From assembly GCA_954871525.1 (NCBI GenBank), contig OX940861.1, forward strand, positions 33,617,201 through 33,681,200: a stretch of 64,000 bases of DNA. Reading direction: 5' to 3'. This DNA is from Parietaria judaica (lineage: Eukaryota; Streptophyta; Magnoliopsida; Rosales; Urticaceae). How positions within the stretch are numbered: position 1 is the stretch's first letter; the number at the start of each line of letters is the position of its first letter. The notes beneath the pieces are model-generated. The model did no database searches. It saw nothing but the letters and a program-made list of their open reading frames with translations, and was not told the DNA's origin. A program made the translations under genes and the position numbers. Shown here in pieces: positions 13,701 through 52,641 of the stretch.

Positions 13701-14047
13701 GTGCCCCGCAAGAACTGAAGCGGTACTACGGCCTGCGGATCGACGAGGACTCCGTCGAGTTCGATGTGATTGGATGGTGGAAGAATCAACGGGAAAGATT
13801 CCCGATATTGGCGAGAATGGCGAGGGATATACTGTCCATCCCCATTTCCAGCGTTGCTTCGGAGAGCGCGTTCAGCTCGGCTCAGCATATAATCGACGAC
13901 CGGAGGGCGTCAACAACTCCCACACACCTCGAGCAAGCGGTGGTGTTGAACGATTGGATGTTCCGCAACCCCACCATCGCCCAACGGTCCGAGCCAACCG
14001 ACCTAGAGCTTATGACGCAAAGGTTTAACGACTGGTTCCCCGAGTGA
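10733..14047 (+). pseudogene. hAT transposase (two exons, few lesions)
   Basis: Exon 1 (10733-11291) encodes a polar N-terminus with repeated 'DADPD'-like acidic units. The likely intron is 11292-12136 (donor GTAATA, acceptor TTTTTAATAG). Exon 2 has a BED finger (WDYF, then CKKC...HKKAC), the RNase H-like core with 'TTDLW' (about 12596) and 'ITLDNAANN' (about 12790), and a C-terminal hAT dimerisation domain ending in 'ASESAFSSAQHIIDDRRAS' (about 13855-13915). Lesions seen are a frameshift inside the BED finger near 12225-12245, a probable one in exon 1 near 11195, and an in-frame TAA at 13532-13534 that separates core from dimerisation domain. Without these it would be about full length for the family. 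Confidence 0.85.
11469..11725. repeat. Direct repeat of about 74 bp in the transposase intron
   Basis: Copies at 11469-11542 and 11652-11725 are almost identical ('cttgaaagtcttagtatgct' to 'acgattttcttga'). Nearby, 'ggaacctcggggagttc' also appears twice (about 11861 and 11939). The rest of the intron is AT-rich. Role unknown. Confidence 0.8.
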
Positions 14048-23800: not shown

Positions 23801-23993
23801 CCACCAGGAGGCCGAGGCGTCCTGGAAGGCGGCTTCGGATGAGATGTACTGGAAGGGCTTTGCTGCTTGCCATGGTGCGCACTTGCAGGAGAACGGCCAT
23901 CGCTCCTTGTCTTCTCGCTTCCTTGACGTCTTGGGGGCACCAAAGAAGGTTCGTAGCGTGCGGCCTTCGAACCTAGCCCTGTCCCGTGATTAG
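20819..23993 (+). pseudogene. Antisense gene of Tat element 1 ('gypsy-type transposase' domain plus coiled coil)
   Basis: It runs opposite to the element's own coding strand. It starts at the ATG at 20819 (MGSPDNLNGG), with an acidic Gly/Ala-rich N-terminus. The segment at 21955-22537 includes 'GMRLPLHPFVQDLLVSLGL' and 'PGSFRTAMMCFSVWHK', matching the plant domain annotated as putative gypsy-type transposase (PF04195). A basic Ser/Pro-rich region follows (22806-23300), then an alpha-helical coiled coil (23493-23860). An in-frame TAG at 21572, a frameshift near 21920 and probable introns (around 22740-22805 and 23310-23487) break the frame. Antisense extra ORFs are known in plant Tat/Ogre elements; their role is unknown. 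Confidence 0.65.
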
Positions 23994-24417
23994 CTCCTCG
24001 TCGAGTGATCTTGAATGTCTTCATTGCTTTCCATTTTGAATAACCGGCTTTGCATAGCCTGGCCTTGCGGTTTGTCGCCTTTTCCTTTTTTCAGACTGAG
24101 GTAGTCCTCTGTGGCATATTTTGCCTTGCATGCGATCCTTTCCCGTAGACCTGCAAATAACATGCATTTATATATAAATTAAACTTTGGATTTGTTCGTA
24201 CCTTTGCTTTGTCGAGCGTGTGCGTCGTGGCGCGTCGTGGCAGTCTTGTGAGTGCACTCTGCTGCGATTGTAGGGTCGTCACCCTTTTATTGCCTGCAAG
24301 TAGCGTAGGTTGTCCGTAGACGATAATATGCCTTTGCTCACCTGGTAGCTAATCTGACGAGTTTGGGCTATGCCAAATGGCGAGGGTGCTCTTTTTGAGA
24401 GGCTTATCTATAGGCGA

Positions 24418-24728
24418 GATTAGTTTCCGGCCTATTGGGGAACTCGGGATTTGTTTCCTGAGCCGGCGGGATTAGTTTCTGGCCTTTCGTGAAACTCGGG
24501 ATTTGTTTCCTGAGCTGGCGGGATTAGTTTCCGGCCTTTCATGAAACTCGGGATTTGTTTCCTGAGCCGGCGGGATTAGTTTCCGACCTTTCGTGAAACT
24601 CGGGATTTGTTTCCTGAGCCGGCAGGACTAGTTTCCGGCCTTTCGTGGAACTCGGGATTTGCTTCCTGAGCCGGCGGGATTAGTTTCCGGCCTTTTGTGG
24701 AACTCGGGATTTGTTTCCTGAGCCGGCG
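24418..24728. repeat. 52-bp tandem repeat, about six units
   Basis: Units run 'gcgggattagtttccggcc' ... 'tcgggatttgtttcctgagc' with one to four changes each. It lies between the antisense gene end and the RNase H remnant, the same position as the minisatellites of element 2. 23994-24417 contains no recognisable gene. Confidence 0.9.
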
Positions 24729-24897
24729 TCTTCTTCGTCTGGTCCGACCATCTCGTCTAGTTGGCTCCTTTACAGATCGTCGTCGTTTGTGGTTGCGGAT
24801 TCGATTCCGTCTTCTTGGTTTGGCTTCGACGAGCGTTTAGCTTAGAGGATCCGTGTCTACGTCGACTTCTGAGACCTTTGGAGTTCTTCTGGCGAGG

Positions 24898-25641
24898 TTA
24901 GCGGCTCGATGCGGCGCTTCCTCCTTCATCATGTCTTCGACGCCTGTTTGTGGGTTCGTCTTCTCCTCTTCCGCTCATTGCTCGAGCTAGCGTGGCTGCT
25001 TCGTCATTGGCGGTTGCAGGGATCCAAGTGACCTCGTGCCATATCAATGGCTGGAGGCGCTCCATGGCTTCTTGCAGTTGAGTCAGCGTCTTGTCCTTCT
25101 GTGTCGGTAGTCCACCGTTCATCTGGCTCGCGATCTTCTGTGAGCTGCAGTGTACCTGCAAATTCTTCACGTCGAGCCTTTCGGCGAGGTTTAGGCCGCC
25201 GAATAGCGCTCCGCATTCGGCTTCGTCGCTGGAGGCTTTGAACTCGAACTTGATGGCGTACTTCGACTTTTCTCCTTGAGGGTTGATGAAGACGATTCCT
25301 GCTCTTGCGCTGGTGTCTTCGTTGCTTCCGCTGATGTGTATACTCCATACCGGCCCGTTGGGCGCGGTTCTTCTGCTTGGCGGTGCGTCCTTCGTCTCCT
25401 TTCTTCCTTCAGCTGCGGGGGTGTCGGCGCCGAGAGTTTGCTTGGCGACTACGTCAGCCTTTGCTTCTCTTTTCTTGGCGACCCCTGGTTGGCATTCTTC
25501 TTCGCTCCTTCGCTTGGCGTGGTTGATCTTCCGCTTGATGAAGCGTAGGCGGTTGAATATCTTGTCGACGAGGCGCCTGTACGTCGCATAGTCTGGAGAA
25601 TCTTCTGGCGCGGCTCCGTTCGTCTTCCTGGATTGGTCCAA
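24898..25641 (-). pseudogene. Pol remnant: RT fragment fused to degenerate RNase H
   Basis: The single frame has 'YATYRRLVDKIFN' near residues 22-34, resembling the reverse transcriptase segment just before the YVDD box (which is absent). It is followed by an RNase H domain (about residues 97-225) with 'AGIVFINPQGEKSKYAI', 'SSDEAECGALFGGLNLAERL' and 'HEVTWIPATANDEAATLARA'. The domain resembles the additional RNase H of Tat elements. The first catalytic Asp (normally 'xDGS') reads SGS and the 'SDSQ' Asp reads CSSQ, so two acidic residues are lost and activity is unlikely. The deletion between the RT fragment and RNase H leaves an open frame. Confidence 0.7.
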
Positions 25642-26768
25642 AGTCTTCTTTGTAGTCTTCGAGGTAGATAACTTTCAGCTCGTCCTCCGTCTTCGCGTCT
25701 TGGTGAGAGTTGGCGACCTCCCGGGCGGTCTTGGTACGCCCCGGTAAGGTTGCGGTCTTTGTCACGACGGTTCCCTTGGCGACCCTCTTGGCGAGCCTGG
25801 CGAGGGTCTGGGATGTTCCGTCGGTGCTCCATGTCGTTAGAGTCTTCGGCCTGGCGAACCTCTTGACGACCCCCCAGGCGAGCCTGGCGAGGGTCCAGGT
25901 AGTTACGGCGGTCTTCAACGTCTTTGGGATCTTCGGCCTGGTGAACCTCCTAACGACCCCCCCGGTGGCGAGCGTAGCGAGGGTCCGAGTGGTCCAAGCT
26001 ACCTCCGTTGCCGTTGTTGTCTCCTTATGCTTTCCTCGTCGTGAGCGTCGATTGACCTATGCGAAGCGTTGTTGACACCGCCCTCATTCCCGATCTGAGC
26101 TAGCGTAACTTGGTAAGGCTGTTGAGTCTGCCTGGCGAGGGTTTAGGCCCTCGTGTTGAGCGCGATGCTGATCGCCGGTTCTGGCGTAGCTGAGGTGTTC
26201 GTCGTGGCGACCCCCCTAGCGATCCTCCGGGTAACTCGTCGGTCTTCGAGGAGGTATCGCAGCATCGTGACGTCCTTTGACGATGCCATGATTTTCTTTC
26301 TGGCGACGTCCCAGGCGACCCCCCGAGCAACCTGGCGAGGGTCGAGGGCGTCGTGGCGTACTCCGGCGATGTAGAGGCATATTTCATGATGACCCCCCTG
26401 CGATCCTTCGGGCAACCCGGCGGTCCTCGAGGAGGCATCGCGGCGTCGTGACGTACTTCTGCGTCGCTGCTCTCCTTTGTTTTTTCCTCGTCATAGGCGG
26501 ATTTGGACCTCCATAAGGTGTCTTGGGCGTCGTCGTTCTCCTCGACATATGTTGGTGAGGCTTGGTGAGGCGGTTGGTCTCGCCAGGCAAGGGGCAAGGC
26601 CCTGATGTTGAGCGTGACGGTTGATACGGGATGCTGTGTCACGTTGCGCGAAGTACTGACTAGGCCCGTCATGCTGAATGGCGGTCTTCGTACTCCGGGT
26701 CTTCGATGAATGCTGGCAAGGGGTCTCGAGGTCATGACTTTGAGCGACCCCTCCTTCTAGCGCCAAAC
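25642..26768 (-). other. Degenerate interior and primer-binding site of Tat element 1
   Basis: The region after the primer site (26748-26765) would normally hold the leader and gag. It has overlapping minus-strand frames rich in Arg/Pro/Ser without a gag domain. Degenerate repeats of 'ctggcgagggtcc' and 'gcgacccccc' about 85-110 bp apart (25760-26000, and again near 26305-26420) suggest expansion of short motifs. A short minus frame near 25620-25660 ('ELKVIYLEDY') may derive from pol. Confidence 0.4.
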
Positions 26769-28442
26769 TGTTAATGCGTAAAAATGGCTTTAACTGAGAA
26801 TCGGATCCAAGGTTCGGGTCCCGAGAGTGACCCGCTGAACACGTGGATAACTGGATGCTGAGTCAACGCGGGTTGACTAATGATCGTCAAAGCTGGAGGC
26901 GAATCCGTCGTCTTGGATGAGTCTCCGGGCTGTCCTTGGCGATCCTCGGCGAACTTCCCTCGTGGTGGCGAAGTACGGATTACGGCGAAGCTCCTCGTCG
27001 GGTTTCCCTCGTGGTGGCAAAGTCCGGGCGAGGTCCTTGTCTTGGCGAAGCTCCTCGTCTGGGCGAAGTCCTTGTCTTGGCGATGTCCTCGTCTAAGTGA
27101 ACTCCGGTCTTGATGAAGCTCCGAGCTGGTCTTGATGAGCGTTGACTTGAGGTGGTTGCCTCCGACAAACCTCTGAGTAAGTATGTCACCATAGAGTTGG
27201 ATCCATGGCGAGCTTCAGGCTCAAGGTCGTTGGCCTTGGCGGCGTCGTCCTTGATGGCAAGACGTTCCTGTAACCTGCACATGTAGAACATGTCTAGGAG
27301 AATCGGAGGAATGAACCTCCGACGCCTCTATGACGCTTGTCATTGTATATGCTCGAAGACGGGGAAAAGATAAAGGGTAAAAATATTTGATGCCGCACCT
27401 CGTGAAAGGTTGCCTACGTACCCTTTAAAGGGATCAGGTCATCACGTAGTTCAAAGTGGAAGGTTAGGGCGTACGTACCTGAGCTTGCCTGGGCAAGCCG
27501 GGAGCTGATTGCGGAGACGGGGGTCTCTGTCGACGTAGCCAGATGGCGAAGCTAGTTGCATCAACTAGGTGCCAGAGCTAGGAACCGTCGAGTCGACATG
27601 CCGCGGATGGCATGTCTGGGCATCGATGTCAACGACCCTTGGCAACCAAGGGCCCTCACCTTGACAAAGATCGGGCGTCCACATGGATCGAAGGTCGGCA
27701 GGGCCCGACGTCCGCCATGGATCGAGTTTCATCCTTGTACCTGACGAGCCAAGATACGCGAGACTCCGAGGAGCGGGGTGTCGGCACTCAACTCGCAGGG
27801 AGAAGGCGAATTCTAGAGAGAGAAGCTCTCATTTAGATAGAGAATTCCAAGTGTGAAAAAGTCCCCAAATGAGGAGGAGAAGCCTCCTATTTATAGGAAA
27901 AGGTGGTGACCATTTTCCCCTGAATCAGGGAGATGATTGGTGTGTCATTTGCCTTGTCGCCTCGTCGCCTTGTCGCTTCGTCGCCTCGTTGCCTTGTCGG
28001 CTTGTCGCCTCATCGGCTTTTCGCCTCGTCACCTCGTCGGCTTGTCGCCTCGTCGCCTTGTCGGCTTCGTTGGCCATGTCGCCTCGTCGTCTTCGTCGGC
28101 CACGTCGCCTTGTCGGCCTCGTCGGCCATGTCGCCTCGTCGTCTTCGTCGGCCACGTCGCCTTGTCGGCCTCGTCGGCCATGTCGCCTCGTCGGCCTTGA
28201 GGGACGTCGTGATCATAACGCCTTGTCGCCGGTGGTCTTGAGGGATGTCATCGCTTAACTGGCCGCACCGACCAGCTCTCAGGGTTGTCCCTTTGTCGTT
28301 CGGGCTTCGTCTTTGGGCCCGATCATTCGGGCTTCGCCAGATGGGCTTGAGATTGGGCTAAATGAGCCTTGACTTCGCCAGCGGGCTTTGACTTTCGTCA
28401 ATAGGGCCCAAGTTTTACATATCTCCAAAATTGCATATAACA
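26769..28442 (-). repeat. 5' LTR of Tat element 1
   Basis: This 1674-bp LTR starts TGTTAATGCG and ends CATATAACA. A minus-strand TATA box CCTATAAATAGGAGG lies around 27883-27897. The U3 region (27950-28200) is a microrepeat of 9-mers 'gtcgcctcg', 'gtcgccttg', 'gtcggcttg' and longer 'gtcgtcttcgtcggcca' units, giving spurious Arg/Leu-rich frames on both strands. Confidence 0.9.
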
Positions 28443-33104: not shown

Positions 33105-35170
33105 ATGAATTATTACCATTGGATTGGCAGTGTTGGCGGAAAGTGGATTTTCAATAGAGATTGTTACAAGTTGTTGTAGGAGGCAATAAGTGATACTGCA
33201 AATGTTGTTACCGTTTCAAAGTCTGCTTTGAACAAAAATTCTGATTTGAAGAATTTTTTATATAACAAGTTTGATATTGTCCGACAATTTGATTTGAAGG
33301 TAACTTATTACCCAGTTGATCACAGTACTCAGCCAATAGCCATTGCTCATGAACCTGGCTTCGAATCACATATTCAGACACCAGATAGACCGTCAAGGTT
33401 GAAACAGCTGCATGTCGAGCTAGTGAAAAAGGTATCTCCTGAAGTAGGTACCGAAAAAACAACATTTGTGCAAGAAGAGTACCGGGTACGGCATGTCGAC
33501 GTACCATATGTTGTTTCGTCCCCGGATGCAGAAGGTGTGATACTGTCGCCATTGAGAGGGTGTTCTAATAACTTTGCGGGATCCTCTACTTTTCCTATCG
33601 GGTTCTAGTCGGGGGAAGAAAGATCGATGCATAGTTTTTACGATGGTATGGATCTTATAATAGGTTACGAGTTTGCATTAAAGGCTGAGTTGAGAAGTGT
33701 TGTGTCCGAGGGTGCTGCAAGACGCTTCGGAGTGAAGTTGATAAAGTCGGACAAGAAATTATACGTAGTCAAATGCCTCGATGAGACATGCGGTTGTAGT
33801 TTACGTGCAGGGCTGGGGGCAGAGGGGACGTTTAGAATACGTACATATCACAGCGTCCACCTTTGTTCCATAGACGCACGACAAGGTTTACTCCGGGCCA
33901 CTTCATCGTTCGTTTGCGATGAGATTATAAGCAGATAAAGTGACCAAAATATGGAAATACCGGACCCGAAAGAGATCCGGAGGCATATGGCAGATAAGGG
34001 TTGCAAAATAAGTTACTGGATGGCAACGAGTGGCAAGAGACTTGCCGAATACAAGATTAGAGGTACCCCTGGCCAGAATTTCGCGTTGTTACCGGCGTTT
34101 TTTTTTTATGGTTGAAAATCAAAGCCCGGGTTCCTTGACCTCAATTAAATGTAACCTAGAAGGGGCTTTTAAGTATTGTTTCGTGGCATTATACACATCG
34201 ATTCAAGGCTTCAAAAGTATGAGAAAGGTTATTTCGATCGCCGCAAGCGCCACTGATGGTAATCACACAGTTTTTCCACTTGCTTTCGGTATTTTATTTT
34301 CGGAGCGGATCGAATCGTGGGAACAGTTTTTAGAAGATCTGAAAGCAGCGATTTCGGAAACAAGTGAGTTGGTCGTCGTAACGGATAATTGCGGACCCAT
34401 CAAGAATGCGTGCAGAAAGGTGTATCGGTTGGCAACCCATGGATTATGTCTTTATCTCATCCAACTGCACTTGCAAGGCAAGTTTAAAGCGAAGATATTA
34501 GTCAATAAGTTTGGGAACTGGCGACGGTATATATCATGGCTGAATTCGACAGAAATTGGGACGAGTTCCAACAAAGTTATCCTTTAGCTGCGAATTATCT
34601 CGATGAAAATCTTGAGTGCAGAGATCGATGGGCGAGGGCGTCTACTTCGAGAAAAAGTATGACATAATAACTTCAAAAAATGATAAACACATGCATGATT
34701 TTATGGAGATAGTTGGAGAATATCCTATTCTTACCCTGTTACATGAGTATTTGAAGATGGTAGCCGCAAGGATAAAAAAATATCATGAACATAGTACAGA
34801 ATGTGGTAACCGATCGTCCTCTTTAGTCACTCCGAACACTGAGCATAAGCTTCGAGAAAACATGAAAGCGTCTGAGAAAATGATGGCTACTAAAGGTTTC
34901 GAACAATCGTGGGAAATGAGAAGTAGCGGAGAGTATAAGGTGGTAGATCTTGTAGGTAAGACGTGCTCGTGCAAAAAATTAAACTTTGATGGGTACCCAT
35001 GTGCGCATGCCATCAGCGCAATCACCACTGAAGGGAAAATCATTCACAATTTCTGTCATGCGTTCTACAGTTTCAACCAATGGTGGCTTTCGTATTCTTC
35101 GCCCGTAAATCTTTTCGCACTTAATGACGATTGGAAGATACTTGCTTCTGTTACTGCTAATTTTTTTTGA
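33105..35170 (+). pseudogene. MuDR-type (MULE) transposase
   Basis: The frame starts at the ATG at 33105, just after a TTTGCAG acceptor. It reads through a DNA-binding domain (33640-33860: 'GYEFALKAELRSVV', 'KLIKSDKKLYVVKC', 'FRIRTYHSVHLC'), the HTH-like segment before the core (33945-34090), the MULE core ('FVALYTSIQGFKSMRKVISI', 'TDGNHTVFPLAFGI', 'ELVVVTDNCGPIKNA'), and a SWIM zinc finger 'CSCKKLNFDGYPCAHA' (about 34967-35014). In-frame stops lie at 33177, 33606 and 33936, and a frame change at the T-run near 34102. The segment between 'KVISI' and 'TDGNH', which should hold the first catalytic Asp, is deleted. Inactive. Confidence 0.85.
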
Positions 35171-37860: not shown

Positions 37861-38255
37861 ACAGATTGCTTCGTTCTAAAACATGATATCTTATTCATAA
37901 AGGAACAACCAAAGTGTTCTTGAAAAACACAGCAACCTTTAAACATTCAAAAAGAAAAAAAAACTAAAAGCAACCAAAGTCTTCTTCAAAAACACAAAAT
38001 AGAATAAACACATAAACCAAAAAAAAAAAACCACCAGAGCCGACTAGTGATATCTTCTACCTCGTAGACTACCACGTTCTAAAACATGATATCTTTTTCA
38101 GCCGACTCGTTCCCTGCCAAATATGAAAAAATATATGTCAAGGATTTAGAAAAATATGCAGTAATATATTTAGAAATACTCACCTGGACGTTGGGATGGT
38201 GGTGCAAGGATTTCCCAGTCAAAATGAACACCCTAATCCAATATACCCTCATTAT

Positions 38256-39049
38256 TGTAGAGGGGGTTTTTCACCACCCTTTTCCAGTCACAAAGACAAT
38301 CATCAAATAATAAATAAAATGACAGCAAATGATGAGTATCTCTGTTTTATTATGATTTCCGAAATGAGCTCGGTTTTCTTCCGTTAAATAGCTGGACAGA
38401 TGAAGGATCATGAGCCTCAGATAATTCTTTTTCTGAGGCCTTTTTCTATTACAAGATCTCTTTTTCTTGCCTTTGCGGAGTCTTTTTTCTCTCCCTTTTG
38501 TTCGAATCACCAACCCCTCAAACTGAGGCTTATCTTGCCTTTTATAGAGTTTACAATACTTTCCCCTTCTATCCTTCCCGCCTTTTTCCTCTTTAATCAT
38601 CACTCTCTGACGTGATTTGAAGGCAGCGGGGTTTATCCTCACTTTATGTCACCTCCGAGCATGCTGCCGTAATGGGTAGGTGCGCCGCATTAAATGCGCG
38701 TCTCGTCAGCCGTCATTCGGCTTTACAGGCCTCCGTCGCTGACGCTCTCATCGAGTGAGTAGGTCGGCTTCATTAAATGCACGTCTCTTCGGCTGTCACC
38801 GGGCTCTGCATAATCATCATGACGAAGTTCCTCGTCGAGTCGTGATGGGATGCTTCATCGCGACCCGCTTGCTCGCGTGGCTGCGTCCCCTCGCTGATTA
38901 ACCTCCTCGGGGTATTCCTCCTCGGGGATGTCCTTCCTCGGGGATAACTCCCTCTTCGCTGGTGAACTTCCTCGCCTCCCTCATGTCGTTTATGGACAAA
39001 ACGACACGAGTTGTGTTGAGGATGGATTTGACCAAATCCGACCTTAACA
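38256..39049 (-). repeat. 3' LTR of Tat element 2
   Basis: Nearly identical to 46855-47648. A minus-strand TATA box CTATAAAAGGC lies near 38538-38548. The terminal dinucleotides are TG and CA. The polypurine tract is just inside (complement of 39050-39070). Confidence 0.92.
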
Positions 39050-39483
39050 GTTAGTCCCCCATTTTATCAAGTGTATACACTTGGTAAAATAAAGTATAAC
39101 TGCCTTGGGGGTTGGCATTAGCCGGCGTCGATTGGCTCGTGGTCGGTGACTCCTTCTTCGGCTCCTCGCGTGGTCATATTATGAAGTCGCTCCCTTCCCT
39201 CGCTAGGCTTCCTTTGCTTCCCTAAGTCCCAACGAAACTCTCAGCAACGAAGATTTCTCAACGTTGCTCGGGTCCGGGACCCACCTCGATTTTGCTTTCC
39301 CAAAAATCTGTCAGCCTCGAATCTTACGCACGTCCCTTCAGCATTGAATGACCATCCTTTTTTGCATTTGAGGGCCTGTAGAGATTTATAACGGGCCTTT
39401 GAAACGAACCGTTTGATGAGTTAGCAAGCTTCGATTTTGGGCCGTCAGATTAAAGACGTGTCTACTCATCATTCTTCCCTTTC

Positions 39484-39490
39484 TATAAAT
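39484..39490 (+). promoter_or_regulatory. TATA box of the antisense gene
   Basis: TATAAAT within 'ccctttctataaattcg' lies 133 bp before the antisense ATG at 39623, a normal distance for a plant promoter with a leader of about 100 nt. It sits inside the element, just past the LTR, so the antisense gene may have its own promoter. Confidence 0.5.
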
Positions 39491-39622
39491 TCGAAATTCA
39501 AAACCATTCTTCCAGGCATTTTCGTATTTTTTTCAAGAATTCTCTCCAGGTTTCTTTTTGCTGTTGTTTATCCTCATCTCCTCGTCCCCGAAATTCTTCC
39601 TCCTTCTCCCTCAGACGCCTCG

Positions 39623-42600
39623 ATGGGTCGATCTCGCTCCGGCCCAGTCTTTAAGACTCGGAGTCCCCCTTCCGTCATGACGGAAGAAGGCTTGAAGTAT
39701 ATCGTCGATAACCACACTGACTCAGGGACCTGCTTTGCCCGTCTCCCTCTCGAGGGCGAGTTCGCCGATGAACCTCAGAGCGGCTTCGTTTGCGTCTATG
39801 AATCGTTCTTCCTCATCGTCGGCCTTCGCTTCCCGACGCCGCTCCTGGTCGTGGCGTTTCTCTACGCCTTCGGGGTTCCGATTGCTCAGGTGAGCCCCAA
39901 CACTCTTCACCTCCTCCTTTGTACACTGGCCATTGCATGTGAACAGAAAGTGGAGCTCACGCTCGAGGACCTGATGCGTCTCTTCAAAGTCTCCCGTAAT
40001 CCAAAGAATCTGGGCCGTTTTGCCATCTCTCATCGCGTCCGACCGCACATCCTCCTGAACACGCCCTCGAACGAATCCGGTTGGGAGAATAAATATTTCT
40101 TTGTTCGTGTGGACAATTTCAACTTCGGTCCCCACCATGCTTTCCTACCGACGGATTTGGTGCTCGAGGGAGCGGACCTCCCTCGATTCAAGCTTGAGGA
40201 GAATGAGGAGGCCGAGGCGCGGTTCAAGAGCATCCACGCTGCTCTCCTTGCCAATCCCAGGCGTGATTGGAGTAAAGACTTCAGGGGCCAGCGGCTTGAG
40301 AAATCTGGGGTTTATCAATTGGCCCGAATACACGGGGCGCCTCCTAACACCCTTCTCCCGAAAGGTTTCCTTCGCGAACCGGCCCCGGAAGGGTCTCCCG
40401 TGGAGCGGAAGAAACCCGCTCCAAGGCCGAAGAAGAACGCCGAGGATATAGTCGTGGCTACTAGGGATAGTGCTCCCGTTGGTCGGGATCGGGAGGCGCA
40501 CAGATCGTCGAGGTCCCGGGCAGGGTCTGACGCTCCTCGCTTCATGGGGATCACCCCCCGAGAGGGTGGTTTCTCGAGCAAACGCCCCGTCGAGGATACT
40601 GGTGACGAGCGGCGAACAAGGGCGAGGACAGAGCCCGCGGTCTGCTCCTCGCGAGATACTTCCTGCTCCTCGGGAAGAAAACTCCCTGGGCAAGCGCCCC
40701 GCCGAGGAAGCGCGTGATGCTTCTCTGGCGAAGAAGGCGAGAGTTCCCGACCCGACTCTTGAACTCGAGGCGGCTGACCCGTCTCAAGGAGCTGCGGAAG
40801 GGACTTCGGGCACCGCGCCTGTCGAGGGCGCAACGGGGAGGACAAGGCCGGCGGCGGACGTGTGCGTACACCCCGCCGAGATCTCGCGGGAGAGACTGGA
40901 GATGGAAGACATCGAGCACCTGGTCGTCGCGCCGGATGCTCCTCCTCCGCCTCCGTCGGGGGCTGAAGACCCCATCCCTCTTTCTGCTTCGGGGGCCGCG
41001 ATCCGGTCTTCCCTGTCACCGCCTCGGGGAATCCTCGATGAAGCGAGGTGAGACTCGGTTGTGGCCTTAACGCCCCTGACTCAACCTTTGGTCAAAGGGA
41101 CCAATGCTCCCAACGCCGGAGATACGGGGCCCGTTGGCGAGGAAGACGTTCCAGAACAGATCCTCCCCGGGCTCACGGAAGAACACTCAAGGGCGCACCC
41201 CGACGTGAATCCCGCTAATCCGAAGCTTCTTCCCGACGTTCCCGGCGTCGAGGCCCTCGAGGGCTCAATGGCCTGGCCTTCCCCTGGTCTTACCGGCGTT
41301 TCCAGCTCACAAGTACCTCTTGTCGCTCCTCCCGGCGCGTTGCCCCAATTAGCGGATGGCTTGACGCAGCCTTCCGAGCCGTCCCTTGACCTCGAGGGAA
41401 TCCCCGAGGAGGTTCCTACCGGGTCGCCGCGGGCCCAATCCAGCTTCCCAGCATTGCCGCCTCCGAGAGCACTTCCCGCGGCCGAAGCTTCTCACGAACT
41501 CGCCGAGCCCTCCAGCGATCCCATGGGGAACTTAGCATTGGTCGACCGCGTTGCCCGGGGGGTAGCTCTATTGTCGGACGTTATCGCATCCGTGTGGCTA
41601 TCCACCGCTAGGGTTGAGAGAGAGAGCAATGAGTTGTCGGCAGAACTCTCGTTAGTCCGGGAACGGTTTGAGGCTTCCACCCACGACGGGCAGAAGTTCC
41701 AGGGGCAGATCGAGAAGCTTTCCTCGGAGCTCGACGAAGCCAAATCTACCTTGGAGTCGGAAAGCTCATTGCGCCGGGCCGCTGAGGCTGAGCTCAACGA
41801 AGCTAGATCTGCCTTGGAGTCGGAAAGCTCATTACGCCGGGCCGCCGAGGCCGAGCTCAATGAGGCCAAGTCCATCTTGGAATCGGAAGTTTCGCTGCGC
41901 CGGGCCGCTGAAGCCAAGCTCGCGGAACAGCAAAACTCTTGCGCTGTTATGGAGGCGAGCCTCTCCGACAAACTCCGGCTTTAAGCGGAATGCCTTGCTC
42001 AGATAGGCGAGGCCATTGGCGTATCGCCCGAACGGGAAGACCAGCTAGTGTCCGGGGTCAATGCCGCGTTGAAGAAGCTCGCTGATGACCTTGAGGCTGC
42101 GCGAGCCGAGGCAGTTGAGGAGCGTCGTGGCCGGGAGCGCTTGTTCGAGGAGGCTCAAGCCAAGTTGGAGCGTCTGTTGGCGAAGTATGGTTTTCTTGAC
42201 CAATCAATCAACGCCCATCGCTTGGCCGTTGCGTACCAGGCCAATATCGCCTTGGTTGAGAAGAACCCCCTGTTGGCACAAGCCGGGGGCCTCGATACAC
42301 GCTTATCCTCGTGGCGTGAAAGCCGCGATAAGCACCGGGCCGTGGTGAAAGAGCTGGACCAGAAGTCTGCCCGGGATCCCAAATCTCCGCCGCTCTCTCC
42401 CTGTAATCCGCCAACCTTGGACTGTCGGGGACTTGAAAGCCTTGCCTCAGAAGTGGTAACCCTTGGATCGGCATCGCGCGATGGATCCGGCCCGAGCACC
42501 GAGACCCCGGCGCTCCCAGAGGCCACGGTATAGGATGTTTCCTTAGAGCCTCCCTTTCTATTTCCCGCTTTTGTAAATTTCGCATTTCGTGGCTTGCGCT

Positions 42601-43851
42601 TTATTTCACTGTAATCCAAGCATAATTACCGTATGAATAAAAGAAATCTTTCTCGGGTTACCTTTTTTTTTCGTCGTCGAATCTTTTTCTACTATCGCCC
42701 TTGTATGCTTGCCCTTTCCTTATCCCTTTTCTTATCGGGCTTCTTTATTGTTTCTTCCGTATTCCCATTCTCTCTTTTTCTCCTCAGGCTAGAGGTGGCG
42801 TCGTTGTACTTTGCCCCGACACTTCTTCCCCCCGCTACGGAGGAGGTCACGAGGGGGCTGGGGAGTTCGCCCCTGCCCTTGCGCCGGTGAGGGCTTTATC
42901 AGGGAACGAAGGCATTCCCCCCGAGGCTCTAGAGGCTAAGATCGCAGAAAGTAAGGCCGAGCGCGATGAATATAGACGCCTCCTCGCTATTGCCGAAGAA
43001 TCACTTCTCGAGGAGCGGCAGCGTTATCGGCGGTGCGAGGACACTCTTTCGGCACAGCTTCGGCAGAAGAATGAGTGTTTCAATCGTATCGCCGATGCCA
43101 TAAATCTGTCGCCCGGTCGGGAGGAGCAAATCTCCTTCCATGTCAAGGCCACGCTGAGGAAGCTCGTCAAGGATCGCGACGCAGCCAGGAGTTGGGCTAT
43201 AGAGGAAGAATTCTCCCGCCTACGCCTCTACCACCAAGCGGTTGACAAGCTGAAGCGTGCCTCCGAGAGGTTTGGTGTGCTTGAGGGGATTGCTTGTACT
43301 CAGCGCCTGCTGGGCAGCGTGCTCTCGAATATCAAACTCGTCGAGGGATTACCTTCCCGCTCGACTGTTGGTGAGCTCCGAGCCAAACTGCCAAGGTGGC
43401 GCAAGTTGGAACAGGAGTACCTGGCTGATTTGGCCAAGCTGGAGATGAAAACCTCCGGTGACCCAAACTCTCCTCCGCTTTCTCCCTGTCTTCCCCAAGG
43501 CGTTGCTAGGGTGCGCTCGCCGGGTTTCGACGTTCTTCCCTCCTCGTCGAGTACGGTATGAGATGGATCAACATAAATAATTCGTAGTTCTTACCTCTTC
43601 CTTCTGGGGTCGATCCTTTACTTTCGGTTCCTTCTTTGCAGGCCGATAGCAGGGCTGATGCGGATTTAGCAAGAGTTTCTTCGGGTAAGCCTCAAGGATT
43701 TCCTCCTGACGATCCTGCTTGCCTAATTGCGGACGACATCATTCGTCGATGCTGCGACATCCTTATTCAAGAATGTGCCGATGCGGTTCTGGGTCAAGAT
43801 TCCTCTGATGATGGCGTTGTGCGGGGGAATCGGTCCCTGCGAGAGTTATAG
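39623..43851 (+). pseudogene. Antisense gene of Tat element 2 ('gypsy-type transposase' domain and coiled coils)
   Basis: It starts at the ATG at 39623 (MGRSRSGPVF); the 62 codons upstream in frame include the TATA region and are not used here. The N-terminal 240 residues form the plant PF04195-like domain, with 'GFVCVYESFFLIVGLRFPTP' and 'GWENKYFFVRVDNF'. A basic linker and acidic Pro-rich region follow, then long heptad-rich coiled coils. Exons after 42000 end near 42525 and 43556 with introns to CTCCTCAG (42787) and TTTGCAG (43642). The last exon ends at 43851. Lesions seen are a frame change near 40660 and in-frame stops at 41049 (TGA) and 41982 (TAA). Some of these could instead be intron boundaries. 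Role unknown; possibly regulatory. Confidence 0.68.
41733..41925 (+). repeat. 60-bp coding repeat, three units
   Basis: Three consecutive units encode variants of 'LESESSLRRAAEAELNEA', a helical repeat that lengthens the coiled coil of the antisense gene. The units are multiples of three, so the frame is kept. Confidence 0.8.
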
Positions 43852-44065
43852 TATGCATATGTATTCGGGGTGCAACTATGAGTTGTAAATAATGATACTG
43901 CGTTTTGTCTTTTTTGAATCCAATGGACATGTGATGACGATGATTTTCTTTTATATGAGTTTGCTTGCGATCTTCGAATCTCTGTGAGGGTTTGCTTGGT
44001 GCCCTTAGTCGTGAATGTGATTTTTCTTTGCTCGGTACTTTCGTCGTGGGCACTTCCGCCTCTTT

Positions 44066-44395
44066 TAATTTTTGCTCGGCACTCTCGCCGTGGGCACTCT
44101 CGCCTCTTTTAGTTTTTGCTCGGCACTCTCGCCGTGGGCACTCTCGCCTCTTTTAGTTTTTGCTCGGCACTCTCGCCGTGGGCACTCTCGCCTCTTTTAG
44201 TTTTTGCTCGGCACTCTCGCCGTGGGCACTCTCGCCTCTTTTAGTTTTTGCTCGGCACTCTCGCCGTGGGCACTCTCGCCTCTTTTAGTTTTTGCTCGGC
44301 ACTCTCGCCGTGGGCACTCTCGCCTCTTTTAGTTTCTGCTCGGCACTCTCGCTGTGGGCACTCCCGCCTCTTTTAGTTTTTGCTCGGCACTCTCG
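44066..44395. repeat. 44-bp minisatellite (about seven units)
   Basis: The unit is 'gctcggcactctcgccgtgg' + 'gcactctcgcctcttttagt' + tttt. Copies are nearly identical, implying recent expansion. It lies between the end of the antisense gene and the 55-bp array. Confidence 0.92.
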
Positions 44396-45075
44396 CCGTA
44401 TATAGGATCTCGGCATGTTTTGCCGGACCGGGTTTGCTCGGCACCCTTAGCCGTATATAGGATCTCGACATGTTTTGCCGGACCGGGTTTGCTCGGCACC
44501 CTTAGCCGTATATATTTTCTTGGTACTCTCGCCGTAGTGGTCTTCTGCGGGTATCGCTAGGTTTCGTCGGGTACGAGCCGACTAGTTCCCAGGATCCCAT
44601 AGGCACTCTCGCCTTGTATATTTCTTCGGCGTTCTCGGTAGCCCGGGCTTGCTCGGCGCCCTTAGCCGTAAATAGGATCTCGACATGTTTTGCCGGACCA
44701 GGTTTGCTCGGCACCCTTAGCCGTATATAGGATCTCGACATGTTTTGCCGGACCGGGCTTGCTCGGCACCCTTAGCCGTAAATAGGATCTCGACATGTTT
44801 TGCCGGACCGGGCTTGCTCGGCACCCTTAGCCGTAATTAGGATCTCGACATGTTTTGCCGGACCGGGTTTGCTCGGCACCCTTAGCCGTAAATAGGATCT
44901 CGACATGTTTTGCCGGACCGGGCTTGCTCGGCACCCTTAGCCGTAATTAGGATCTCGACATGTTTTGCCGGACCGGGTTTGCTCGGCACCCTTAGCCGTA
45001 TATATATGTATATATATTTTGAAATTTTCTCGGCGCTCTCGCCGGATCGGGCTTGCTCGGCACCCTTAGCCGGTT
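44385..45075. repeat. 55-bp minisatellite (about nine units)
   Basis: The unit is 'gctcggcacccttagccgta' + 'aataggatctcgacatgttt' + 'tgccggaccgggctt'. It shares the 'gctcggcac' start with the 44-bp array, so one likely derives from the other. One unit is replaced around 44515-44640 by a divergent stretch. The array ends in (TA)n and a T-run at 45073-45090. Confidence 0.92.
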
Positions 45076-45335
45076 TTTTTTTTTTTTTTTTACACTTTCC
45101 CTCCTAATTGGTGTTACCACCGAGCAGAGTTGCATACACACTTTGCCAACTTTATAATTTGCTCGCTCCTTAATAAAAATAAAAAAAATAAAAAACACAC
45201 ATACATAGACATTAGAAATCCGACACAACGAACCCAAACAAACTTCTATCACCTATGATAATCTACTAATGTTAAAAGGGGTAGCCGCCTCAATCCTCTC
45301 CTCGCTCCGAGCAGCTTATGAGCCTTACTCTGGGC

Positions 45336-46337
45336 TCACTCCTCTTCGACGATCGAGCAGGCTGACGACGCGATTTTCTCCACAGAGCTCCTGCTGGGGC
45401 GACCGAAGTTACATTCCGGGCAGAGGTCAGTGTACCACGTGGTACCGAGGATGTAGCACGACCTGCAAAAACCGCAAACACGCCCATCCCGCCATTGCCC
45501 AAAACACGGCGGGCGGACGGAGTCTCCTGCTTGAATTCTCGTTGGCTTCTCGTAGACCAGGACATTTCTGTCGCACCGTCTGCAGAATTCCATGTCGAGC
45601 AGACGACCGCGTGAGGCATGCGCCTGCTCCTCGGAATGGTCGGCTGGATTCCCTGCCGCGAGCAGAGGGGGAAGGTCCTCAAGTTTGACCTTGGTTCCCT
45701 CCACGAACCTGGGAAATAAACCGTTGACCCTCAGGAATTTTATCCTGTGCTCGATGGTGGACAAGTTGCTGACCACGTCATCCAAGGTGATTTGGTGGCA
45801 GCGTGGCAGGCATAGCTTTACGAGCGTCGGGTTGCCCCGCATGATCGTCTCCACCGCGGTGTTGGTGATCTCGAAGCACCCATCCAACGTCAAAGTCTCC
45901 ATCTTCCCTTGAGATCTCCTTGCCAGCCTCAGGAGATTGTCGTCTTCCATCCGCTCGCTCAACGGGTCGTAGATGCTGATGTTGCGCCACAGAAGGCTGT
46001 TTCCCCGAACCTCGTCGCGCAACGACGTGCATACCATCTCCACCGCGAGGAGCTCCTCGGGCATAAGATATGGCAGAACCAGTTCCAACGCGGGGTGTGG
46101 TTCACCCGGGATCCTTGACTGCTCTTGATCCCGCTGGCCCTCCGCGATGTCCTCGTCCATTGGACATGGCTCGCTGCTTTCCGGCCATTTCTCGTGCTTC
46201 CGGAAGTCCGTCATCTCGTAATCATCTCCTCCTCGTGCCTCAGTTGCGCCCTCCTTGGGCCATCCCCAGTCTTCATCCACGATCATCTCTGACTCGTCTG
46301 TGTGACTCTGGCCAGCATCTCCTTCTCTGGGCGCCAT
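45336..46337 (-). CDS. F-box protein, SKIP14-like, captured in a retrotransposon
   Basis: This open frame of about 333 codons starts at the ATG at 46337 (MAPREGDAG), with an acidic N-terminus (about 75 residues). An F-box follows ('ALELVLPYLMPEELLAVEMV', then 'LWRNISIYDPLSERM'), then leucine-rich repeats ('METLTLDGCFEITNTAVETI', 'LVKLCLPRCHQITLDDVV'), and a Cys-rich tail with 'CRRCDRNVLVYE', 'CGFCRSCY' and 'CPECNFG'. F-box, repeats and Cys-rich tail in this order match plant SKIP14-type F-box proteins, which bind SKP1 in SCF ubiquitin ligases. It is intronless and undamaged, on the element's coding strand, in the usual place of gag. The frame upstream stays open to near 46450 and a 3' splice-like 'gaaatacag' precedes the ATG by about 26 nt, so a spliced 5' exon (ATG near 46513, MGSLEKIKNN) is possible. 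Confidence 0.72.
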   Translation of the reverse strand: MAPREGDAGQSHTDESEMIVDEDWGWPKEGATEARGGDDYEMTDFRKHEKWPESSEPCPMDEDIAEGQRDQEQSRIPGEPHPALELVLPYLMPEELLAVEMVCTSLRDEVRGNSLLWRNISIYDPLSERMEDDNLLRLARRSQGKMETLTLDGCFEITNTAVETIMRGNPTLVKLCLPRCHQITLDDVVSNLSTIEHRIKFLRVNGLFPRFVEGTKVKLEDLPPLLAAGNPADHSEEQAHASRGRLLDMEFCRRCDRNVLVYEKPTRIQAGDSVRPPCFGQWRDGRVCGFCRSCYILGTTWYTDLCPECNFGRPSRSSVEKIASSACSIVEEE

Positions 46338-46854
46338 CTTCTCCTCGTGTGCTTTCCCGGCCTGTATTTCAAAAACACTAGCAAGCACTGGTTTCGGAGT
46401 GAGAAAGGATCTTTTGTTTTCTGGGTTGAGAGAACGATACTTATCTGGGAGTTAACCGAGTTGGTTTCTATTTCCGCAGACTCGTTGTTTTTTATCTTCT
46501 CCAAACTTCCCATTTTATAAACGTTGATTGTTTCGTAAGCGACTCTTCGCATCCTTTCTTTCGCTGTCGCTTCACAACGCTTCGGAAGTTGCTCCCATTC
46601 GTTGATACGCGTGCACTCCTTTTTCTGACCAACCGTCTATCAATCGGCTTCTCTTAAATGCAAAGAGTCCGTACGTCTCCCCTTCTTCCGTCACTCATGT
46701 CCCTTGAGTTGCCTCTTTATACTCTGCTTGCTATTTTCGCGCGCTCAACCGTCGAGCGCGTCGCTGACGATGGCGTCGTTTGATAACGTCATGTCCCTCC
46801 AAATTCCTGGCTGTGAGTTAGAAAGAAAACAAAGCCCCACGGTGGGCGCCAAAC
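46338..46854 (-). other. Leader and primer-binding site of Tat element 2
   Basis: The primer site TGGCGCCCACCGTGGGGC (complement of 46834-46851) follows the 5' LTR after a short GTT. The leader up to the F-box ATG is about 500 nt, with short upstream frames, one starting MGSLEKIKNN (46513) that overlaps the F-box frame in another register. Confidence 0.7.
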
Positions 46855-47648
46855 TGTAGAGGGGGTTTTTCACCACCCTTTTCCAGTCACAAAGACAATC
46901 ATCAAATAATAAATAAAATGACAGCAAATGATGAGTATCTCTGTTTTATTATGATTTCCGAAATGAGCTCGGTTTTCTTCCGTTAAATAGCTGGACAGAT
47001 GAAGGATCATGAGCCTCAGATAATTCTTTTTCTGAGGCCTTTTTCTATTACAAGATCTCTTTTTCTTGCCTTTGCGGAGTCTTTTTTCTCTCCCTTTTGT
47101 TCGAATCACCAACCCCTCAAACTGAGGCTTATCTTGCCTTTTATAGAGTTTACAATACTTTCCCCTTCTATCCTTCCCGCCTTTTTCCTCTTTAATCATC
47201 ACTCTCTGACGTGATTTGAAGGCAGCGGGGTTTATCGTCACTTTATGTCACCTCCGAGCATGCTACCGTAATGGGTAGGTGCGCCGCATTAAATGCGCGT
47301 CTCGTCAGCCGTCATTCGGCTTTACAGGCCTCCGTCGCTGACGCTCTCATCGAGTGAGTAGGTCGGCTTCATTAAATGCACGTCTCTTCGGCTGTCACCG
47401 GGCTCTGCATAATCATCATGACGAAGTTCCTCGTCGAGTCGTGATGGGACGCTTCATCGCGACCCGCTTGCTCGCGTGGCTGCGTCCCCTTGCTGATGAA
47501 CCTCCTCGGGGTATTCCTCCTCGGGGATGTCATTCCTCGGGGATAACTCCCTCTTCGCTGGTGAACTTCCTCGCCTCCCTCATGTCGTTTATGGACAAAA
47601 TGACACGAGTTGTGTTGAGGATGGATTTGACCAAATCCGACCTTAACA
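46855..47648 (-). repeat. 5' LTR of Tat element 2
   Basis: The minus-strand TATA box CTATAAAAGGC (about 47137-47147) would start transcription near 47115 toward the F-box gene. It is followed on the right by the 5-bp target copy actat (47649-47653). Confidence 0.9.
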
Positions 47649-48085
47649 ACTATTATTATAAAAGGGCAACGAAACAAACCCTAAAGTGCAATATCAATTC
47701 ACGTCGCTTTCCAGGACCAATTTGTGAAACCCTAATCCAAATCTAGTTTTGTCCATACCACTTTGGGAAACCCTCATCCAAATCTTGTTATATCCGTAAC
47801 CCAAATCTATAATGTTTGAACTCAACCACCCAAGGCGTTCATGTTTGTCAACGCGCCCTCGTCTCTGTCATCATCGTAAACTTTATTTAAAGCATTTCTT
47901 TATTCTCATATTTTAAAAAAAATTAGCCAGATTCTAACTTCCTTGTTCATTTTTCTTCCGTATATCAGGGTACGACTTAAATGAGCCATTATGTTACCGA
48001 AAAAAATAGCTGCGACCCGTGAAGAACACTCGACATGCCCATCAGGCTCGCAGGGCGTCTTCGCCATCGGGCTCGCAGGGGCACT

Positions 48086-49017: not shown

Positions 49018-52000
49018 TCATTTTTTTAATAAATTGTTTGCGTAAATTTCCGCGGCATATCTCATTCGTGCTCTCTTTACAAATTTGTCACTGAATAAGT
49101 TAAGCGGGTGGTTTACCATATCGAGCTCCATGAACTTCATGCAGAAGATCCCACAATCTCCGGTTCCTCCCGTTGGCGATCTATTTTGAAGGCAAGCCAC
49201 CCGCCTCCACGTCCGCTCTCTCCTTTTGAGATGATCAAAGTGATCAACGAATGTCAAAATCCAAGGTAGAAAGGTCTTCAAAGCACGCATGGCTTCATTT
49301 ATTTTCTTATCATAGGCGTATGTAATAGTGGAATCATACAGGACAAATTCCGCCTTCAATAAATCCGCCTTGCATGAAATCTAGAGCTGTAAGTCAAGGT
49401 TTATCGGGAAGTAGAGCCGCTCTTTTTGCATCCATTCGCGTTCGTAGTCCCTTCCATGAGTACTATTGAGCCATTGCATAGCGTGTATTACGATATTATC
49501 ATTGTTCATTAAATCCTTTGGTTCACCATCGAGAGCCCAACAATTAATGGTACGTATTCATGAACAACGAAGGGAGAACAACGATTTTATCCGAAGTCGG
49601 AATAGTCTCTAGAAGCTCAATCAGTCTTTTTTAGAGGCCTTCAATGATTTCGTCTAGGTGCTACAATTAATTGTAAATTTATTAAATGTTATAATAGAAA
49701 TAAATGATTAAATTATTAATGTAATCCTTGAAGACTGATTACCTCATCTTCAAGCCATTTGGATTGGGTCAAGAGGGTGTGCCACCACTTGTAGTCTCTA
49801 TTTTGCAACAACCCTCCCTTACCACCCGTTACGTCTTTATAGAACTTATTCCAAACACTCGTGAACTGATTGTAGATATCAACACGACATATATCAAGCG
49901 GGTCGAAGGCGAAAGCCATACTACGATTTCCCTGTGTGATCTGGAAGTAAACCGATATTGTTACTTATGCATACCGCTATTCATAGTATTTAAATCATTC
50001 CGCTATTCATAGTAAATAAATAATACCACTATTGTTAACTACGATAACCGCTATGTAAGATTTATTTTAAAATATTCGTACCGCTCTAGAACCGCCAAGT
50101 TTGACGATCGTGTTGGCCGCTTCATTCTCCTCATTAGGCTTCTTCTCCTCCTTTTCCTTTTCCTCCTCAATCTTCTACGCCTCCTCCTCCAGCTTCTTCT
50201 CATCCTTCATCCGCTTCCTCTCCTCCTCAATCTTCCGCGCCTCCTTCTCCAACTTCTCCTTCTCCTCCTTCATCCGCTTCCTCTCCTCCCTAATCTTCCG
50301 CGCCTCATCCTTCTCCTTCTCATTCTCCTCCTTCTTCCGCTTCCTCTCCTCCTCAATCTTCCGTGCCTCTTCCTTATTTTTCCGCTTCCTTTCCTCCTCA
50401 ATCTTCCGCGCCTCCTCCCCCTTCTTCCATTTCCTCTCCTTCTCAATATTCCGCGCTTCTTCCTCCTCCTCGATATCCTTCTTCTGCGCCTCTTCCTCTT
50501 CGACATTGTTTCCTTCTTCCACCTCTTACAACTTCCCTACTTTGTGTGCATAGTAAAATGGATCGGTATGATTCGACCTTTGCTCTGCTTCATTTTTCTC
50601 TCTCGTAACATCGGCATTATACATATCTTGGTACTGAGAGCCCAATACTTCGCTTAAGTTCAAATATTGATCAACGATGTATGCCTGCATTGTGCCGTCA
50701 CTCGTAGACACCAGTGACAATTGAGCAGCACCACCGTCTGTTTCTTGAACTGGACGTAATCCTTCTGATGAGCCCAGTTTGTCAATCGCCTCCTACTCCC
50801 GATCTAAAGGCACCCCCAGTCGCAAATATCGATATAAGCACCTTGCCGCTTTTGTTACTGCATCCTCCTCGTGGTCGAGAGGGGAATGTTCTCCCTGACC
50901 AAGAAACAATCTGGTGGAGTTGTGGTATAACCGACCTATCAAATCTACACAGTGCGATAAATTTTGTTGATCCGATGCCGAAGGAGGAGTGGTCGCCGTC
51001 TCATTTTCCCGTCGTTCAACCCTCTGCCGCTTGTTCGGGGTTTTGGACACCGAGACGGGAGCGGAGGAGTGGGTACTCTGTCTCTTTCTTGAGACTTGTG
51101 GTGGTGACGATCCATTATCGGACGTGCTCTGGCTCTCAACGTACCGTCGGTTTCGACGTGGGCGTCCAGAAGAAGATATAGGGCTCAGTTTCTCACCTCC
51201 GCGTTGTTGGGACTTGGAAACCAACTTCTTCTTTCTTGGAGGGGTGAAGGCGAATCACGTTGCCTCCCTTGTTTTCTTCTCGGTGTCGGTTTACGAGGAG
51301 GAGCATTCTCTTCCTCTCACGGCCGTTATTCCCGCGGAGGTGCCGGAGGTGGTGGCGTATGAATGATCCGCTCACCTCTCTCCAAGAAATCCACGAGCGT
51401 TTCAAAATACAAGTTTGGAGAATTTACACGCAGCGGGATAGATTGCGGGAAAGAGAATATTCTTTTGTTCGTGTAATATAATATTGGATATCATTAGCGC
51501 TAAAGTTGACTATCAATCCTGCCTTAGCGCTAAAGGTGACACTCATATCTGCTATACCGCTACAAACGACTATAACCGCTATGTTACCGCTATGATATCA
51601 TGGCATGCAATGTGTAGAGCAACTGACCTCTAGAGAACTTTTCTTTATAACGGGGGTGATATCTTCGAACTCCTTATGCTTTGTCGCGATTGGCCTAGTG
51701 GTCCATATGCACATACGAGGTGCGCCGCCGCAGGCGCTTCTCGAGGGTTAGCTAAGTACGTTGCCATCGCCGGCAAACACTCAATACGCCAAAAACTGCA
51801 TGAAGTTTGAATGTTAATTTGAATTATGTGTAACAACCATTTATGCGATGAAAATAAATAGATTCAAACACTTTACATATACTTGTATCGGGTGAACGAA
51901 CCCCAGAAGGATCATATCTACACAATTTAGTTTTTTCATGATGACAAAAAAATACTTATCCACCAGTTCCTTCGATAGCTTATGATGAAGCTGCTTCATT

Positions 52001-52641
52001 GCGTACTCGAAGGATACTGTCCCCCAAGGATAGCCAACGAAGAAATCAATGTCTTCTACCATTGCAAGCAGATTATCATCCGGCATCTGCGTCGGTCTAT
52101 CCTTGAAACAGATCACTCCGAAGAAGATGCACACGCAGGCCAAATGCTTCTTATCATCGCTGCCCTATGGTTTTTTGTGAATATCCTTTAGTCGATCCTG
52201 AATATTCGTGACAGTAATCTGCTTCTTCTCCGAAGGCCATAAACGCTTTTTGAAATCATTGTAGAACGCTCGTGACTGATCCTCGTTTTGAGATAACCTT
52301 GGCACCGCGTGGCAAAGCAGCCCAGTGATGATGGTGAATTCCCGAATGTTGTATCGCAGTGGGACGTTGTTTACCAAGAACCAAAACTCACATGCGTCCC
52401 TTTGTTCTGTCGTCATTCTCACCATCGAACTCCACAATAATTGGGAAACATGCTCGTAGTGTGTCAGGACATCTAATAGATGACCAAATTGTGTGTCCCA
52501 GAACCACTGAAGCTCATCCTCATCTAGTGCTCCTTTAATGATAGTCGTCACTGTGTCGAATTGAGTTTGCCTGGTGGTAAACTTGTTTTTGTAGTGTTCA
52601 TTTTCCTGCAACTTAGTATGTAAAACTAACGGCTGCTGCAA
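49018..52641 (-). pseudogene. DUF1985/Ulp1-like cysteine protease gene of the MULE
   Basis: Reading leftward, 52641-52165 encodes a DUF1985-type domain ('FGHLLDVLTHYEHVSQLLW', 'FWFLVNNVPLRYNIREFTII', 'TGLLC'). An in-frame TAG at 52165-52167 interrupts it before 'DNLLAMVEDIDFFVGYPWGT' (to 51841). Then come a Ser/Arg-rich segment (51224-50793), a charged coiled coil built from 'EARKIEEERKRK' units (50522-50175) and the C48 protease end (49359-49018), including 'FVLYDS' and the catalytic Cys motif 'TGDCGIFCMKFMELD'. In the segment before 'FVLYDS' ('YFPINLDLQL') the expected catalytic His-Trp is not seen and a stop occurs. Probably several introns. Such proteases cleave SUMO-type conjugates in their active forms. 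Confidence 0.72.

Follow-up and report, generated by a model that had tools for sequence, protein, structure and literature searches.

A predicted F-box protein kept by selection on an LTR retrotransposon of Parietaria judaica that lacks gag-pol

The window analysed here is a stretch of 64,000 nt from Parietaria judaica (GCA_954871525.1, OX940861.1, positions 33,617,201-33,681,200 of the forward strand), and it contains a long terminal repeat (LTR) retrotransposon with an open frame for a predicted F-box protein. The element spans 9,393 bp (38256-47648) and is read on the minus strand because of a stretch resembling a primer-binding site (PBS) after the right LTR and a purine-rich stretch before the left one, both on that strand. 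The two LTRs are 794 bp each, both with TG...CA ends, and align without gaps and with 7 mismatches (Kimura two-parameter distance 0.0089), the internal region between them is 7,805 bp. Together with a near target-site duplicate in the flanks (4 of 5 bases alike), these are the marks of an LTR retrotransposon. The element does not have the make-up of an autonomous Ty3/gypsy element of the Tat/Retand type; five gag-pol queries, taken from a sister form described below, gave a single match in it, at E 0.098.

The F-box frame is open from 46451 to a stop at 45336, 371 codons from stop to stop, and the first ATG, at 46337, gives a protein of 333 aa. The longest open frame in 500 dinucleotide shuffles of 45060-46854 (~1.8 kb) was 304 codons, and the GC content by codon position in the frame is 0.58/0.45/0.71. 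Pfam finds an F-box-like domain (PF12937) at E 5e-5, with 23.3 bits as compared to a curated cut-off of 24.3, and a phmmer search of PDB gave FBXL2 (6e-6) and FBXL17 (0.003); judged by these matches, the product is an F-box protein. It also has a short part resembling leucine-rich repeats (LRR), roughly residues 140-225, and a Cys-rich tail where each Cys is retained in at least 44 of 46 aligned copies. An AlphaFold model of residues 90-350, made with no alignment, had a mean predicted local distance difference test (pLDDT) score of 34, too low for a structural reading. No homologues of the protein were found at E 0.001 among 3,263 candidates in a large protein collection, presumed to be without plants, and residues 90-350 gave none at E 10 among 1,272 candidates of the same collection. 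A scan of IMG/VR with the F-box protein gave no match.

The sequence-only reading of this DNA had described an intact frame without stop or frameshift, with an F-box, leucine-rich repeats and a Cys-rich tail, on the coding strand just after the PBS of an element whose LTRs differ at about seven of 794 positions. The interval it singled out, 45336-46854, is the frame plus the leader up to the LTR. This description holds, except that the leucine-rich repeats amount to a short LRR-like part. In six other copies (L047, L051, L067, L069, L070 and L074) the frame reaches 433 codons through an upstream extension that includes an earlier ATG, and in the window the corresponding upstream residues sit in a different frame, 46552-46283.

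A query of the genome with the LTR gave 2,598 candidate places, the best 40 of which were scored. The presumed inner flanks at 20 LTR places held the F-box frame in 11 cases, gag in 6, and neither on the side viewed in 3, one of which (L013) belongs to the distal LTR of an element that has its F-box on the other side (C6:1160387). Eight of these 11 frames read to the end, those of L010, L015 and L024 have early stops. When the F-box protein was the query, the best 116 of 678 candidates encoded the frame, with 83-100% identity to the window; 78 of them are free of stops by a hand count and 38 hold stops. A search with a SKIP14-like probe added 88 F-box rows beyond the 116, also by hand comparison. 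The frame of copy L087, with 69.6% identity to the window over 332 residues, is open for 396 codons, and in L086 the F-box needs two frames. In all 20 divergent copies that were retrieved, an LTR end (80-95% alike) and the leader (90-96%) can be recognised. In a tree of 46 copies several clades are supported, and a burst leads up to the copy in the window. The scored places of the LTR, the F-box and the antisense frame treated below are all on 9 of the 87 contigs (C1, C3, C5, C6, C8, C9, C19, C20 and C24). For annotation this implies that genomes with this family may list at least 100 element frames as host F-box genes.

Selection on the frame was estimated as omega, the ratio of replacement to silent change (dN/dS). 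From 62 frame-bearing loci, 10 duplicates and 6 loci with frames below 340 codons were removed, which left 46 copies (L038 is short). Comparisons of the window with 20 divergent copies (L059-L078) gave omega values of 0.24-0.42, and with L087 it was 0.33 at a silent divergence (dS) of 0.53. When 40 of the 46 copies were pooled by clade, with bootstrap 95% intervals, omega was 0.31 (0.20-0.48), 0.31 (0.23-0.45) and 0.32 (0.23-0.43) between three clades, 0.34 (0.19-0.58) between two close groups, 0.29 (0.22-0.38) within the oldest clade and 0.50 (0.33-0.78) within the second. As a control the other frames were treated in the same way, and as compared to 0.31 in the F-box frame they gave 0.95 and 1.21 in the forward direction, and 0.75, 0.39 and 1.35 in the reverse, where 0.39 is from the frame mirroring the third codon positions. 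By region, omega was 0.23 in the N-terminal part, 0.24 in the F-box/LRR and 0.56 in the linker and tail. The F-box protein is under selection across the subfamilies, with silent changes about threefold over replacement changes. Only the insertion in the window is young, the F-box lineages are old.

At the six gag flanks the LTRs are 97-98% identical to those of the window. One gag-pol copy was followed, C5:433257-441625 (pieces L012 and L079), and what it has in common with the window element is the LTR, the leader over ~60 bp, some of the 55-bp repeats and, at 89% identity, the final 168 bp. Its domains are reverse transcriptase (RT, 3e-32), RNase H (6e-25), RVT_3 (6e-18) and integrase (5e-15), and RVT_3 lies between RNase H and integrase as in the Tat clade. 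The scores for gag (9e-14) and for protease (6e-5, slightly short of the cut-off) are from two further copies, L018 and L009, so that the domains given for the sister form come from separate, unjoined copies. The followed copy has no F-box, and no long antisense frame in the ~0.7 kb between integrase and LTR. The LTR pair of another gag-form copy is 99.5% alike, so this form has moved recently. From these comparisons the family looks split, with the enzyme regions on one kind of element and the F-box and an antisense protein on another, and with nearly identical LTRs on both.

The antisense frame is 430 codons in the window, and at least 900 in 55 of the best 150 of 2,627 candidate places. Its protein matches Transposase_28 weakly in three of the six copies compared (E 0.05-0.09) and not at all in the other three, and by eye G21, P25, L34, P46 and N47 of the six conserved residues published (PMC11963269) are found at the published spacing, with F55 absent. 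In a core of 237 residues omega was 0.05-0.13 for 14 of the 15 pairs, with 0.31 for the remaining pair; the antisense protein is constrained more strongly than the F-box. At 99 of the 150 scored antisense places a scored F-box row is found at a distance of 4.6-8.2 kb, with the expected side and strand, and for the other 51 the lack of one need not mean absence, as only the best rows were scored.

The same genome has a host relative of the F-box frame, at C3:47418 kb, where two coding stretches are 69% and 71% identical to the SKIP14-like probe, as compared to 32-46% for the other 148 of the 150 scored probe rows. By its likeness to the probe, this gene is probably SKIP14. Its first exon has an F-box-like domain above the cut-off. 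The joined exons code for 462 aa and are separated by a single intron, 244 bp long and in phase 0, that follows LVK. The element frame is uninterrupted at this site, reading NPTLVK-LCLP where the host has NLKLVK-LSVP. The two proteins are 36% identical over 275 aligned residues, from the F-box through the LRR to the first Cys motif (29% over 312 by BLAST), and the silent sites are saturated. A run of at least six A starts 243-268 bases past the stop in 15 of 18 copies across clades, in the window it is 18 A, and it is followed by the 55-bp repeat unit at once or within ~10 bases in 10 of the 15 and by an AT-rich stretch in 5. At the other end, the leader common to the gag form is ~60 bp and ends just before the gag start (...CACAGCCAGGAATTTG). 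Taken together, the intron-less frame, the untranslated flanks and the A run suggest that the frame likely comes from a captured, spliced and polyadenylated host mRNA, and that it now replaces gag-pol.

The sequence-only reading had seen here a SKIP14-type host gene in the gag position of a recent retrotransposon, and had proposed to look for other copies, to compare introns with the donor and to compute dN/dS. All three comparisons agree with it, the frame being multi-copy, continuous across the host intron and non-neutral between subfamilies (omega ~0.31), and the intron-bearing relative bears out the SKIP14 type. The F-box itself, whose absence in an HMM search would have refuted that reading, was matched. 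The gag position needs refinement, the F-box starts where gag of the sister form starts, and so replaces gag-pol and does not stand beside it. The insertion is young as claimed, but the F-box is not a recent passenger, with lineages up to dS 0.53. The features of the element are collected in Table 1.

Table 1. Features of the F-box element, in window coordinates
Feature	Position	Strand	Basis or remark
5' LTR	46855..47648	-	794 bp; differs from 3' LTR at 7 positions
TATAAA, candidate promoter in 5' LTR	47140..47145	-	consensus match only
PBS-like stretch just inside 5' LTR	46834..46851	-	sequence; candidate
Leader, first ~60 bp, common to gag-pol form	46793..46854	-	105-108 bp matches include 46 bp of LTR
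Remaining leader, not found in gag-pol form; five upstream ATGs in leader	46338..46792	-	sequence comparison
F-box frame, 333 aa counted from the first ATG (open stretch begins at 46451)	45336..46337	-	open reading frame analysis
F-box-like domain PF12937	45972..46100	-	E 5e-5, 1 bit below curated cut-off
3' untranslated stretch behind F-box frame	45092..45335	-	similar in copies inspected
18-A run (minus strand), read as captured poly(A) scar	45074..45091	-	15 of 18 other copies have a run of at least 6 A at matching place
Tandem repeats, 44-bp and 55-bp units	43983..45073	.	repeat analysis
Antisense frame of 430 codons, weakly matching Transposase_28 (TRP28)	39425..40717	+	Pfam, frame lengths elsewhere
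Further antisense open frames, probably rest of same coding region	40452..43561	+	continuity inferred from longer frames elsewhere
Purine-rich stretch before 3' LTR, polypurine-tract position	39050..39065	-	sequence
3' LTR	38256..39049	-	LTR pair alignment
Flank ATTAT, near target-site duplicate of ACTAT 47649-47653	38251..38255	.	4 of 5 alike

The window holds a second LTR element of similar plan on the minus strand, 15541-28029, with an LTR pair ~97% alike. It has an RVT_3 RNase H (2e-13, 24898-25674 minus) in its sense 5' part and an antisense Transposase_28 frame (21886-22539 plus; 1e-4, yet below the cut-off), with no other match to the gag-pol of the sister form. It may be a further element that is poor in enzymes and has kept a single sense protein. 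It was considered as a relative of the F-box element and rejected, as there was no DNA match at E 0.01. Remains of hAT transposase (hAT RNase H 7e-8, dimerisation region 8e-25), a MULE transposase with a SWIM finger and a BED finger are found at 12137-14047 plus, 34012-35170 plus and 5858-6445 minus. A piece of an Ulp1-type C48 peptidase (2e-11) lies with DUF1985 (2e-12) at 49018-52641 minus, a pairing known from plant MULE-type elements.

F-box proteins join SKP1-CUL1 ligases to a target. The LTR promoter, with its TATA box, would make F-box mRNA. No long sense frame would precede the F-box on the element RNA, and the upstream ATGs may lower its translation. The F-box would bind SKP1, and the LRR-like part and the Cys-rich tail would bind a host target. 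The proteins of the sister form would package and copy both forms, in trans. The target would most likely be a factor repressing the family, in silencing or antiviral defence, by analogy with polerovirus P0, which has an F-box-like motif and targets AGO1, the role of its SKP1 binding being called unclear (PMC6593998). The plants' own F-box protein FBW2 also controls AGO1 (PMC2914764, PMC9035678). A silenced parasite would gain from removing a silencing factor, and this, together with P0 and FBW2 acting on AGO1, is why host counter-defence appears to be the likeliest use and self-regulation the next, although overall we hold it with low confidence.

The best explanation, and in our judgement a fairly probable one, is that a captured and selected F-box is carried by an enzyme-less element, that the sister form copies both, and that the protein works as an adaptor of an SKP1-CUL1-F-box (SCF) ligase against a host repressor. 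More tentatively, it is conceivable that this is a two-part retrotransposon, with the enzymes on one element and a selected SCF adaptor and an antisense protein on its LTR twin, where the F-box protein would destroy a host silencing factor as P0 does.

Several observations speak against this explanation. The F-box of the element is 1 bit under the Pfam cut-off, and the A run stands in A/T-rich, slippage-prone DNA and is absent in 3 of 18 copies. Fully intact gag-pol frames were seen in none of the copies viewed, with L079 (RT / RNase H-integrase) and L009 (gag / protease) split into overlapping frames, so that an active helper is putative. Between the window and 25 close copies omega was 0.17-1.14, and within its own young clade 0.60 (0.36-1.08). 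Among 12 young copies there were 39 replacement and 24 silent changes, where the neutral expectation is 2.4:1, and 5 stops, which implies that inserted copies decay nearly freely and that the constraint belongs to the spreading lineages. Choosing the copies by their similarity to the protein in the window lowers dN somewhat, comparisons within the oldest clade being less exposed to this. In one element, L076/L082, dS to the window is 0.24 for the F-box and 0.69 for the antisense core, a difference within one element that suggests a reshuffling of parts among lineages, or rates that are unequal. The expression of the F-box protein, its SKP1 binding and its target are all putative.

Could the frame be kept for its RNA or DNA, as a spacer or for packaging, or be carried along passively in a deletion derivative that did well? 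Coding capacity is not required for non-autonomous elements to spread, and stops in 38 of 116 scored frames and nearly neutral changes in the young copies would fit, but the constraint between subfamilies is specific to the coding frame (0.31, as compared to 0.95 and 1.21 for the other forward frames), the L087 frame is open at 70% amino-acid identity and the Cys residues of the tail are retained; we regard this as quite unlikely. It is also very improbable that the low omega reflects host selection, with the F-box copies refreshed from a conserved host gene. The element is ~35% identical to the host gene, with saturated silent sites, yet the 116 scored copies are 83-100% identical to the window, and the leader, the 3' untranslated stretch and the LTR move with the frame, which outweighs the presence of a SKIP14-type gene in the genome.

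A working SCF adaptor could also control the element or its partner, for instance surplus Gag or the antisense protein, and not host defence. Nothing specific speaks against such self-control, and the evidence favours neither target. The element does carry a constrained antisense protein, and accessory frames of this sort have been suggested to act in regulation (PMC7264820). We consider self-control somewhat unlikely, and prefer an adaptor directed at a host repressor. The two-part reading, if true, would give retrotransposons their first F-box counter-defence and would make this a retroelement genome split between cooperating parts. In this family a predicted ubiquitin-ligase adaptor, likely captured, has been kept by selection through several subfamilies, on an enzyme-less element beside a twin with the enzyme regions. 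Two questions become testable now, what makes non-autonomous elements retain proteins at all, and whether F-box counter-defences like those of viruses occur on plant retrotransposons.

Partners sharing LTRs are known from rice, the non-autonomous Dasheng and the autonomous RIRE2, where Dasheng is non-coding. The family described here has LTR-sharing partners as well, but its non-autonomous form keeps two constrained proteins. The likeness to Retand/Tat elements (Vicient 2025, PMC11963269) lies in an antisense frame before the 3' LTR, though its match to Transposase_28 is weak here, and in the tandem repeats, here arrays of 44- and 55-bp units and published for about half of the elements. The 794-bp LTR and the 7,805-bp interior are within the published 315-1,194 and 7,380-12,869 bp, and the sister form shares the second RNase H (RVT_3) with Tat. 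Here, however, there is no gag-pol and an F-box at the gag start, and in the available text of that paper, with a table of 63 clusters of which ten lack some domains, no F-box is named.

Capture of host genes by LTR elements is in print. Extra frames are known in Tat/Retand (PMC11963269, PMC6317226), a demethylase in orchids (PMC9289625) and captures in cereals (PMC7264820, PMC3726574). The orchid Ogre-like elements have a host-derived enzyme gene (m6A demethylase, 2-ODD) kept over replication rounds in a Tat-clade element, but there the gene was added to gag-pol, here the F-box replaces it. The genes captured by LTR elements in rice and sorghum (PMC3726574) and by maize Bs1 (PMC7264820) are likewise host captures, some of them under purifying selection, but transduced frames have one or a few copies according to PMC7264820, as compared to more than 100 copies in several subfamilies here. 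The word F-box is absent from four checked main texts among these papers, including PMC11963269, and occurs 0 times in PMC7264820. A pine paper considered as a report of an F-box-carrying transposable element describes instead an F-box gene containing transposable elements.

Polerovirus P0 (PMC6593998) is also a protein with an F-box motif from a plant parasite, and the likeness is one of proposed mechanism only, no sequence relation is claimed. A close case is one copia element of flax, which has an F-box protein gene between its two LTRs (PMC5142383). Copy number, selection and a partner are undiscussed in the available text of that paper, whereas the element here is of the Ty3/gypsy type, without gag-pol, multi-copy, constrained and accompanied by a gag-pol twin. 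The kind is thus known from flax, and as far as our literature searches go, with subscription journals mostly outside their scope, a multi-copy and selected F-box in an enzyme-less partner is new.
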